From Kordiimonas sp. SCSIO 12610 (GTDB lineage: Bacteria; Pseudomonadota; Alphaproteobacteria; Sphingomonadales; Kordiimonadaceae), in NCBI RefSeq assembly GCF_024398015.1, contig NZ_CP073747.1, positions 1,746,501-1,810,500 on the forward strand: a stretch of 64,000 bases of DNA, given 5' to 3'. A model generated the notes under the pieces. It searched no databases, was not told the DNA's origin, and was given only the letters and a program-made list of their open reading frames with translations. Positions 10,940-13,819 of this stretch are shown here, one piece after another (position 1 is the first letter of the stretch; each line of letters begins with the position of its first letter). The position numbers and the translations under genes were made by a program.

Positions 10940-10996
10940 ACATATGTTTAGTGATAACATGTATTGGTAAATATGGACTTAAATACATATGTTTAG
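10940..10996. repeat. 12-bp direct repeat upstream of the SPOR lipoprotein gene
   Basis: ACATATGTTTAG occurs at 10940-10951 and again at 10985-10996, 45 bp apart, roughly four helical turns. The first copy is followed by a matching ACAT half-site (10957-10960), giving ATGT-N9-ACAT, similar in shape to known PadR sites. The second copy ends 16 bp before the start at 11013. Confidence 0.45.
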
Positions 10997-11012
10997 AGCG
11001 AAAGGTACTGCT

Positions 11013-11822
11013 ATGAAACGTCTTCAAGATCAAAGGGTTTTGTGCCTGACATGGGCCAGAAAGGCGGCAGTTTATGCCTTGTTGGCGGTTTTTGTCGTCG
11101 CTTGTTCAAGTTCAAAGCAACCTGATCTTTGGCAATCCGATGAAGTGTTGCTTCAGGCGTGGCAGCAAAAAACAGATCAAAATATTGAGGATGTATCCGA
11201 ACGACAACAAGACCTTCTGGAGCGTTTCCATAAGTTAGAACAGCTCTATGTTTCACTATCGAATGAACACAGTGCAAAGCAAGCTGAGCAAGCAACATTG
11301 TCAGCGGCTCAAAGTCAGAATTCGGCACAAGTGAATGACGAAGAATTTATGAAAATTCAGGAAACTCTTACAGCGATTTCCAAATCATTGGAGCAGTTAG
11401 GGGAACGTGTGTATGCCGTAGAGCTGGCAGCTGCAAAACCAATTGAACGCCCTGTTTCTGACACCTTGGACAAGCAAGCTGATAGTGTCGATGGTAGTTT
11501 TGTTGAAGAAGGATTGCCCAATGTACCAGTTCTTCCGTCCGCAGAAGGAGGAGTGGTCGTTCATGGAATTCATCTAGGCTCATACAGGTCGAGGGAACAG
11601 GTTCCTGGTGCTTGGGAAAACCTAACAAGCACATTCAGTGAGTTGGATTTGCTCAAGCCAAAATTATATGTTCAAAATCAGGAAGGTATTGGCACTTTTC
11701 TTCGGTTGATTGCCGGGCCTTATGAAACAAGTGACGCTGCCGCAGCCGCCTGCGAACGGATTAATCAGGTCGATACTGATCAATATTGCCGGATATCAGA
11801 ATTTCAAGGCGAAGATTTATAG
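11013..11822 (+). CDS. Lipoprotein with C-terminal SPOR domain
   Basis: From the ATG at 11013 (AAAGG ahead of it; an earlier in-frame ATG at 10989 lacks one) the product is 269 residues. It has a positively charged N-terminus, a hydrophobic stretch and a lipobox-like VVAC with Cys31, so it is probably lipidated. A Gln/Glu-rich coiled coil (about 45-140) leads to a SPOR-like domain (about 185-265: VVVHGIHLGSYRSREQV ... RLIAGPYETSDAAAAAC). SPOR domains bind denuded glycan strands at the division site. This suggests a septal or envelope role; the direct partner is unknown. Confidence 0.8.
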   Translation: MKRLQDQRVLCLTWARKAAVYALLAVFVVACSSSKQPDLWQSDEVLLQAWQQKTDQNIEDVSERQQDLLERFHKLEQLYVSLSNEHSAKQAEQATLSAAQSQNSAQVNDEEFMKIQETLTAISKSLEQLGERVYAVELAAAKPIERPVSDTLDKQADSVDGSFVEEGLPNVPVLPSAEGGVVVHGIHLGSYRSREQVPGAWENLTSTFSELDLLKPKLYVQNQEGIGTFLRLIAGPYETSDAAAAACERINQVDTDQYCRISEFQGEDL

Positions 11823-11961: not shown

Positions 11962-12159
11962 TTGACTTAACTGAGTGTTTTGTCAGTAATAACTCTACCT
12001 TTTGTGATTTATAGGTGTTGATTAACTTGGGGAGGTGAAATCGACTAAGTGGCGCTTAATTAGCTGCCTACTATATTTTTAAAAGGCCGGGCTTGTGACT
12101 AGGGGGTCCGCTCGGAATAGACGCGGTGTTATGTTTAGACATTCACCGCGTCTTTTTTT
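11962..12159 (+). ncRNA. Candidate structured small RNA with promoter and terminator
   Basis: No convincing ORF exists here. A promoter-like TTGACT (11962-11967) with TAATAA (11987-11992, 19-bp spacing) would start a transcript near 11999. The following ~160 bases can fold into successive hairpins: ACCT/AGGT; GTTGATT/AATCGAC with a GGGGAGG loop; GGC/GCC around 12051; and CCGGGC/GCTCGG. It ends in a strong terminator (GACGCGGTG 12120-12128, CACCGCGTC 12144-12152, then T7). No known RNA family is recognised: the two ends do not pair as in 6S RNA, and tmRNA, SRP RNA and RNase P signatures are absent. It could also be an untranslated leader or remnant. Confidence 0.45.
12120..12159 (+). terminator. 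Strong rho-independent terminator
   Basis: A perfect 9-bp GC-rich stem (12120-12128 with 12144-12152) with possible inner ATGT/ACAT pairing is followed by seven T. With no gene on the plus strand for 300 bases upstream, it implies an untranslated transcript. Confidence 0.85.
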
Positions 12160-12180
12160 ATTTGCTAATGAATGACAGTT

Positions 12181-12213: not shown

Positions 12214-12393
12214 TTATGCTGAATATTTACGGCTAAATATCATAACAGGTTTCTTTTCAGTCAGAATATTTCTAACGCTTAAATAGTGCGGGTATATATG
12301 ACGTTTAAGCGGCTCAAATGCATCCTGTATTGCAGCAATGCCAAGTGCCCCAAGTCCAATAAACATTAATAATACCAGCATTGTAATCATCAT
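12214..12393 (-). CDS. SOS-controlled single-pass membrane microprotein (59 aa), new
   Basis: The 59-codon ORF starts at tandem ATGs (12393/12390) with AAGGA six bases upstream, within AAAAAGGAACAAA. Residues 3-22 are a continuous hydrophobic segment rich in Leu, Ile and Gly; residues 29-59 carry Lys/Arg/His pairs, so by the positive-inside rule the C-terminus should be cytoplasmic. Two GAAC-N7-GAAC LexA boxes lie 14 and 54 bp upstream. A promoter-like TTGATT-N17-TAGAAC falls between and within them, so LexA would block initiation. A hairpin follows the stop. I recognise no family. The layout recalls SOS-induced membrane peptides such as Caulobacter SidA (division inhibitor) or E. coli TisB; that parallel is inference. 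Confidence 0.7.
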   Translation of the reverse strand: MMITMLVLLMFIGLGALGIAAIQDAFEPLKRHIYPHYLSVRNILTEKKPVMIFSRKYSA

Positions 12394-12396
12394 TTT

Positions 12397-12461
12397 GTTC
12401 CTTTTTGTTCTTTAAATGTTCTACTTTGTTCTAAAATGAAAATCAAGAACAAAAAAAGAAC
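12397..12461. promoter_or_regulatory. Double LexA (SOS) operator
   Basis: On the plus strand GTTC occurs at 12397, 12407, 12418 and 12428, with gaps of 6, 7 and 6. The 12407-12421 pair is an exact GTTC-N7-GTTC box. A second exact box, GAAC-N7-GAAC, lies at 12447-12461, with an all-A spacer like that of the uvrA box. Both sit in the spacer between the microprotein gene (minus) and ppx (plus), but close to the microprotein start and about 105-160 bp from ppx. Confidence 0.8.
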
Positions 12462-12493: not shown

Positions 12494-12523
12494 TTGCGCG
12501 TTAGAACATAATAATGCTATCAT
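12494..12523 (+). promoter_or_regulatory. Candidate promoter of ppx
   Basis: TTGCGC (12494-12499), an 18-bp spacer and TATCAT (12518-12523) lie about 45 bp before the ppx start and downstream of the LexA boxes, so ppx may escape LexA control. Confidence 0.35.
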
Positions 12524-12565
12524 TTGCGCAAGTGAGCAGCCTCATGGGTTTGCGAATAAAATAAT

Positions 12566-13819
12566 ATGAGAAATACCATGTCCTTAGATGATCATGGGGT
12601 TGGGCCTGCTGAAGTAGACAGCGTAAAAAACAGGGATACTGTTAAGCCAAATCCGAAAAGAAATAATAGGCACCGGTCTAGAAATCGGAAACAGCATTCA
12701 AAACCTCGCGGTGATGGTTCGACAGGAAACGATCATCAAATTCCTGCGTCTCATTCAAATCCAAACATTCCTCCTAACCGTGCAAAACGTGGCGTCTACA
12801 GCGCCATCGATTTAGGGACAAATAACTGCCGGTTATTGGTTGCCAAACCAACCTATAATGGGTTTCGCGTTATCGATGCCTTTTCAAGAATTGTAAGACT
12901 TGGCGAAGGACTGGCGACGAGTAAACAATTATCGTCAGGGGCGATGGACCGAACGGTCGAAGCGCTCAAAATATGCGCGGATAAAATTGACCGCCGCAAT
13001 GTAACCTGCATGCGTCATGTCGCTACAGAAGCCTGCCGTGTCGCAACCAATTCAGACGAATTCCTGGAGCGGATTCACAAAGAAACAGGGCTACGCTTGG
13101 ATATTATTTCCCCGGGTGAGGAAGCGCGCCTTGCGGTGATGGGATGCCAGTCGCTCATCGCGAACGGGAACAAGCATGCGCTCGTATTTGATATTGGTGG
13201 TGGCAGTACCGAACTTATATGGGTCAAGGTTCTCGCCAATCAGAGGACTGAAATTCAGGGGTGGACGTCTATTCCTTGGGGTGTAGTGAACCTGACTGAA
13301 AAATTCTCTCAGGGCCAAGCCAGTATTTCCAAGGATACCTATCAAGCGATGGTTCAGGAAGTAACCAAGCATCTTATACCCTTTGAACGGCGTTATCGAA
13401 TTTCGAATGTTGTTAAAAATCAGAAGGTACAGTTTCTTGGGACATCGGGAACGGTAACCACCTTGGCCAGCCTCCATCTTAATTTGCCGCGGTACATTCG
13501 TGACAAAGTGGACGGGGCATGGATGCAGGCGCCGGATATTGAATTACTCTCAAAGCAGGTCGCTATGATGAGCCACGAAGAGCGTTCAGAGCAACCCTGC
13601 ATTGGTAGCGAGCGTGCAGACCTCGTGGTAGCAGGGTGTACTATTTTGAATGCAATTCTGGGCATGTGGAATGTCCCAAGTTTGAGAGTTGCCGATCGTG
13701 GTATTCGCGAGGGGATTTTGCGTGGTTTGATGCAAATGGAAAGACCACCACTTCGTGCAAAGCCCCGTCGTTATAGAAAAAGAAGAAGGCAGAATAATCA
13801 TGTCCAATGGGTGGAATAA
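12566..13819 (+). CDS. Ppx/GppA-family phosphatase (exopolyphosphatase or pppGpp phosphohydrolase)
   Basis: The family removes terminal phosphate from polyphosphate or pppGpp. The actin-like fold begins near residue 77 with YSAIDLGTNNCRLLVA. It is followed by a catalytic-Glu region (SPGEEARLAV), VFDIGGGSTELIW and LGTSGTVTTLASL. At 417 residues it lacks the C-terminal HD domain of long Ppx proteins. An unusual ~75-residue N-terminal extension, rich in Asn, Arg, Lys, His and Pro, precedes the fold, and the C-terminus is also strongly basic (RAKPRRYRKRRRQ). The start may be 12566 or the ATG at 12578; neither has a good ribosome-binding site. It overlaps rlmE by 20 bases, indicating coupling. Confidence 0.85.
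   Translation: MRNTMSLDDHGVGPAEVDSVKNRDTVKPNPKRNNRHRSRNRKQHSKPRGDGSTGNDHQIPASHSNPNIPPNRAKRGVYSAIDLGTNNCRLLVAKPTYNGFRVIDAFSRIVRLGEGLATSKQLSSGAMDRTVEALKICADKIDRRNVTCMRHVATEACRVATNSDEFLERIHKETGLRLDIISPGEEARLAVMGCQSLIANGNKHALVFDIGGGSTELIWVKVLANQRTEIQGWTSIPWGVVNLTEKFSQGQASISKDTYQAMVQEVTKHLIPFERRYRISNVVKNQKVQFLGTSGTVTTLASLHLNLPRYIRDKVDGAWMQAPDIELLSKQVAMMSHEERSEQPCIGSERADLVVAGCTILNAILGMWNVPSLRVADRGIREGILRGLMQMERPPLRAKPRRYRKRRRQNNHVQWVE

Follow-up and report, generated by a model that had tools for sequence, protein, structure and literature searches.

A ppx-linked microprotein family with a LexA-type double operator in Kordiimonadaceae

Several small membrane proteins (SidA, DidA and YneA) act on the division proteins FtsW and FtsN (PMC4211646, PMC13396833). 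SidA of Caulobacter crescentus (29 amino acids) is an SOS-induced division inhibitor binding FtsW and FtsN, and DidA of Caulobacter (71 amino acids) binds FtsN (PMC4211646); YneA, SosA and ChiZ are SOS division inhibitors of Gram-positive bacteria (PMC13396833, PMC6851548). Here we analyze an open reading frame (ORF) of 59 codons lying next to ppx in Kordiimonas sp. SCSIO 12610, within a 64,000-nucleotide stretch (hereafter the window; NZ_CP073747.1, positions 1,746,501 to 1,810,500). It very probably encodes a real, SOS-regulated microprotein. SOS-induced membrane microproteins are already known as a kind, and what is new is the unnamed ppx-linked family. Our literature search found no paper on LexA in Kordiimonas and no earlier description of a microprotein class with a double operator.

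Compared with SidA, the product shares putative LexA control, a predicted nature as a tiny single-helix inner-membrane protein and probable harm from leaky expression, but it is encoded at another locus and has the opposite predicted topology. It resembles DidA, compared by description only, in its similar length, single predicted transmembrane helix and expected induction by damage, with an operator that is here of LexA type. The likeness to YneA, SosA and ChiZ lies in putative SOS induction, small size and an N-terminal transmembrane helix, which in YneA contacts FtsW; the differences are the lack of LysM (no Pfam domain above cut-off), a basic tail predicted to be cytoplasmic, and another LexA motif and phylum. 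TisB and DinQ, the single-helix toxic SOS peptides of E. coli, are under LexA control, as it putatively is, but the protein studied here is longer, has an invariant glycine face and a different sequence, and no antisense RNA was seen.

Conservation and predicted membrane insertion of the microprotein

The ORF (12214-12393, minus strand, stop included) starts with ATG and encodes MMITMLVLLMFIGLGALGIAAIQDAFEPLKRHIYPHYLSVRNILTEKKPVMIFSRKYSA. It is preceded by a ribosome binding site (12394-12403, minus strand) in which AAGGA at 12403-12399, already noted in an earlier preliminary description of this DNA, is followed by a 5-nt gap to the start codon; purine-rich sites also precede the starts of orthologous ORFs. 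We surveyed 30 genomes of Kordiimonadaceae, a family of marine bacteria, the genome that holds the window being a 3.5-Mb contig. A contig search with the 59 residues as a single sequence returned no match because the protein diverges too fast (a same-genus orthologue is only 31% identical), and whole-genome single-sequence searches followed by profile searches were needed. The profile search retrieved a protein at the spot between a SPOR-domain protein gene and ppx in 24 of the 30 genomes, together with a weak syntenic match in G007, and direct reading of that spot added counterparts in G006 and G008. With ppx not found at E <= 1e-40 in three genomes (G022, G026 and G027), each of the 27 genomes in which the ppx locus was detected has an orthologue or syntenic counterpart at this position divergent from ppx. 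An order-wide profile search gave no convincing match outside the family, after which relatives beyond it were sought by synteny and operator.

Orthologues with synonymous-biased substitutions, which the preliminary description had named beforehand as a test of its proposal, were found. Two close pairs of genomes (G009/G011 and G003/G010) together show 13.5 synonymous changes over 85 sites and 7.5 nonsynonymous changes over 260 (pS about 0.16, pN about 0.03), and the first 30 codons hold 7 synonymous changes against 1 nonsynonymous. The ORF is almost certainly a protein-coding gene.

Across 24 aligned sequences, the residues F11, G15, G18 and Q23 show no substitution. H occupies position 4 in 20 of them, A predominates at positions 20-21, and the tail varies. 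The conserved residues are grouped on one helix face (moment 0.305, p = 0.017). The hydrophobic N-terminal helix and basic C-terminus noticed earlier recur in the family: a hydrophobic 19-residue window starts at residue 1-6 in all 26 sequences checked, and each of them has no K or R before this window and 3 to 11 after it, for which reason we predict an N-out/C-in topology with the basic tail in the cytoplasm. AlphaFold2, run with the family alignment, gave a confident helix at residues 2-33 and a low-confidence tail. Membrane insertion of the microprotein is thus predicted with high confidence. No match above cut-off was obtained in Pfam or NCBIfam, and a sequence search of PDB gave none. 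Hits to DUF2627 (Pfam, E = 0.027, below cut-off) and phrog_726 (PHROG, E = 0.0027, for 2 of the 24 members) were rejected as chance similarities among hydrophobic helices.

A LexA-type double operator at the promoter

Upstream of the ORF, all on the minus strand, LexA-type box 1 (GTTCTTTTTTTGTTC, 12461-12447) abuts the -35 hexamer TTGATT (12446-12441; TTGAC in most relatives), and box 2 (GAACATTTAAAGAAC, 12421-12407) overlaps the -10 hexamer TAGAAC (12423-12418). The 17 bp between the hexamers fit most orthologues and are kept within 1 bp in a few. An extra GAAC half-site at 12428-12431, 6 bp before the first half-site of box 2, is not conserved; six GTTC/GAAC half-sites fall within 12397-12461. 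Elsewhere in the window, exact boxes occur only before recA (814) and uvrA (27161), both identified by Pfam. We thereby recovered every element of the promoter as first described, namely two exact GAAC-N7-GAAC boxes, one of them over the likely -10, six half-sites in 65 bp, and recA and uvrA as the other boxed genes.

The strict double operator is present at 25 of the 27 ppx loci; the starts of the two boxes are separated by 40-45 bp, and by 41 bp in twelve of these loci. Box 2 is strict in all 27, and box 1 is a near-match in the other two, having one mismatch in G008 and being degenerate in G024. We consider this conservation of the double box the decisive evidence for the operator. Single boxes alone are not significant and show no enrichment over chance (4 exact boxes seen in the window vs 1.7 expected; 97 genome-wide vs 126 for a reversed control pattern), and their count was dropped as an argument in favor of the double operator. 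Nowhere else in the genome's box list do two opposed exact boxes come within 60 bp of each other, and the pattern GTTC-N7-GTTC-TTKAY-N17-28-GAAC-N7-GAAC is expected about 1e-4 times per genome by a uniform-base estimate.

The box corresponds to the published Alphaproteobacterial LexA motif (PMC3323433, PMC12700426). The genome encodes a single LexA (Pfam PF01726 and PF00717) with a box of its own 42 bp before the ATG, and, reading around 20 chosen boxes, we also found boxes before recA, uvrA, and genes for a Y-family polymerase, an HhH-GPD glycosylase and a radical-SAM protein, as well as before an ORF judged ImuA-like from its sequence, with no Pfam match. Two exact boxes of the GTTC-N7-GTTC type stand at -35 and -10, they are kept in relatives, and lexA, recA and uvrA in this genome have boxes of the same kind. 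The microprotein gene is therefore very likely LexA-regulated, a judgment on binding and induction that draws on the motif, its position and its conservation. One box is the rule in Caulobacter, at about 97% of SOS promoters, and it is sidA that makes a lexA mutant filament there (PMC12700426); a double box would therefore suit a product that is harmful when leaky.

The same reading of boxes gave three further observations. At G000:C1:155218, an ftsK-type gene (FtsK_4TM) is preceded at 48-69 bp by a LexA-type box, which suggests that ftsK belongs to the SOS regulon of this genome. Exact boxes also precede a 307-amino-acid ORF of unknown function (G000:C1:3093715) and a gene for a repressor with helix-turn-helix and S24-peptidase domains (G000:C1:1492233).

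Proposed function and competing explanations

Our best functional guess, made by analogy, is a SidA/YneA-like inhibitor of septal wall synthesis, the main rival being a depolarising toxin. In undamaged cells, LexA bound to the two boxes bracketing the promoter would keep expression almost nil. Upon DNA damage, RecA would trigger LexA self-cleavage and the promoter would open, as motif, position and conservation suggest. The short protein is then predicted to insert in the N-out/C-in orientation, the basic tail being cytoplasmic. The conserved helix face (position 4, F11, G15 and G18) may pack on a transmembrane helix of a membrane target; we lean moderately toward such a specific helix-helix contact. 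By analogy with SidA and YneA, the likeliest target would be the FtsW/FtsI/FtsN septal wall synthesis complex, with division paused until repair, and we give a divisome target an even chance. If the target is shared with the SidA-like group the contact must differ, because the predicted orientation does. The model as a whole, an SOS-induced single-helix inner-membrane microprotein that pauses division through the septal wall synthesis complex, could in our judgment equally prove right or wrong.

Several points weigh against this proposal. The division role is an analogy, and SidA-type microproteins have no detectable homology to the family and the opposite predicted topology. The substitution counts are small, though consistent, the helix-face test is modest (p = 0.017), and the double layout also stands before some genes that do not encode microproteins. 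Of the original idea of a LexA-regulated checkpoint or toxin, the conserved, coding-like membrane microprotein absent from Pfam and NCBIfam and its tight LexA-type operator have stood, whereas homology to the SidA type could not be detected.

The invariant helix face would fit any membrane partner, and many small membrane proteins bind larger membrane complexes, as is generally known. An SOS-induced regulator of another membrane machine (a protease, transporter, envelope sensor or respiratory complex) nevertheless seems unlikely to us: no particular partner is indicated, and in Alphaproteobacteria and Gram-positives the SOS membrane microproteins known best target division. We also doubt a TisB/DinQ-like mode of action, in which the SOS peptide would reduce membrane potential or ATP and bring on dormancy instead of a specific division block. 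A protein of this size with one hydrophobic helix, a net positive charge and very tight repression would agree with such a role, and E. coli has toxic SOS peptides with a single helix (DinQ, PMC3567139), but the helix here carries an invariant glycine face and a Q in place of a charged amphipathic pattern. TisB and DinQ are moreover held by antisense RNAs, and none is evident here: we looked for an antisense promoter or terminator over the microprotein ORF and found none, and the plus-strand RNA candidate nearby (see below) ends about 55 bp short of the stop.

Regulation of polyphosphate metabolism through the divergent ppx gene is very improbable. The ppx linkage is conserved throughout Kordiimonadaceae, but the boxes sit on the microprotein's own promoter, and the linkage is probably not functional because counterparts elsewhere, in Emcibacter-type genomes and Rhodobacterales, have different neighbors. 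A chance ORF with chance boxes, for which one could cite the chance frequency of single boxes in window and genome and the 31% identity within the genus, is hardly credible in view of the synteny and operator shared across the family, the invariant residues and the synonymous bias.

Neighboring elements and double operators beyond the family

The two genes flanking the microprotein ORF are kept in synteny in relatives: ppx/gppA (12566-13819, plus strand) is divergent and the SPOR-domain protein gene (10989-11822, plus strand) is convergent. Because no further gene lies on the same strand between the ORF and the SPOR gene, the microprotein gene is probably monocistronic. A hairpin after its stop had been described and is present, but it is weaker than claimed, being short and AT-rich; the strong hairpin at 12118-12155 has a T-run on the plus strand only and resembles a terminator serving a plus-strand transcript. 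A plus-strand small-RNA candidate (12000-12160) lies in the gap separating the SPOR gene from the ORF and is kept in Kordiimonadaceae at four loci as blocks such as CTTGGGGAGGTG and CTAGGGGGTCCGCTCGG together with the terminator hairpin. It matches no Rfam family, and Rfam matches in the region were rejected as AT-rich chance matches far under gathering scores. The interval from box 1 to ppx holds a CTCACTTG element (12520-12545, minus strand) that is found there again in several relatives and possibly belongs to the ppx promoter or leader.

We scanned 84,980 genomes for the double-operator pattern and found 99 places, vs about 6 expected by a uniform-base estimate. In 78 of them, an ORF of 25-100 amino acids with a hydrophobic window starts within 50 nt of box 2, by an automatic and lenient test run with no shuffled control. 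The gene contexts are several and unrelated, and four recur: next to ppx in Kordiimonadaceae, Iodidimonas and others; between enoyl-CoA-hydratase-like and chorismate-mutase-like genes (named from sequence, not Pfam) in Emcibacter-type genomes; as unnamed microproteins of 31-47 amino acids in Rhodobacterales, immediately after a gene read as recG; and between lolD- and dnaE-like genes in Robiginitomaculum. Four loci of Emcibacter-type genomes and of the metagenome-assembled genome (MAG) NAT158 hold double-operator microproteins away from ppx. The recG-linked loci (seven, and other Rhodobacterales) share a conserved D-hhG-hAA motif. Double operators also precede a radical-SAM-like gene in Acidiphilium and an imuA-like ORF in Filomicrobium; the loci with a radical-SAM-like gene and large imuA-looking ORFs are two of Acidiphilium, one of Filomicrobium and one of Geminicoccaceae. 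The layout hence also serves repair genes and is characteristic, not exclusive. We set aside, as chance or unrelated, the pattern matches in Bathyarchaeota, in Chloroflexi and in Bacteroidales, where they come from a GTTC-rich repeat; in the Bacteroidales MAG RGIG4772, many interspersed repeats of the GTTCTTTAC type mimic the operator pattern (eight loci).

The sidA gene is located directly upstream of dnaE. We read the region before dnaE in 30 Alphaproteobacterial genomes, and nearly half have a hydrophobic ORF of 29-47 amino acids with a LexA box there (sixteen loci recorded); from that position we take these ORFs to be SidA-type, probably. As proxies for C. crescentus SidA itself, these ORFs show no profile similarity to our family (hhalign P = 0.25) and mostly have a single box, vs the double operator here. 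In 7 Kordiimonadaceae, the 900 bp preceding dnaE contained no LexA box. Caulobacter dnaE has itself been reported as SOS-regulated (PMC3323433). The recG-linked microproteins of Rhodobacterales have the same double-operator layout and one hydrophobic segment, but this segment is C-terminal, with the D-hhG-hAA motif and the opposite predicted topology, and their similarity to the Kordiimonadaceae family (hhalign P = 0.015) spans 5 columns only. By these profile comparisons the family matches neither group convincingly, and the recG-linked and dnaE-linked groups may be related to each other (hhalign P = 2.4e-4).

The double operator largely marks a broader class of SOS microproteins. We tentatively suggest, at somewhat less than even confidence, that two opposed LexA boxes bracketing a sigma-70 promoter mark a widespread Alphaproteobacterial class with at least two sequence types of opposite topology, housed at different loci by order (ppx, recG, dnaE, the Emcibacter locus). 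Its members would have arisen independently, or have been replaced repeatedly, as damage checkpoints acting on the same division machine, with the ppx-linked Kordiimonadales family as an unrecognised branch. SOS division checkpoints have so far been identified species by species, since their proteins are very small, evolve fast and escape annotation. In this case the searchable signature is the operator and not the protein, and it yields candidate checkpoint microproteins in dozens of Alphaproteobacteria, for most of which we know of no named SOS division inhibitor. Should they indeed act on the divisome, these microproteins together would reveal which surfaces of FtsW/FtsI can be targeted by unrelated helices.
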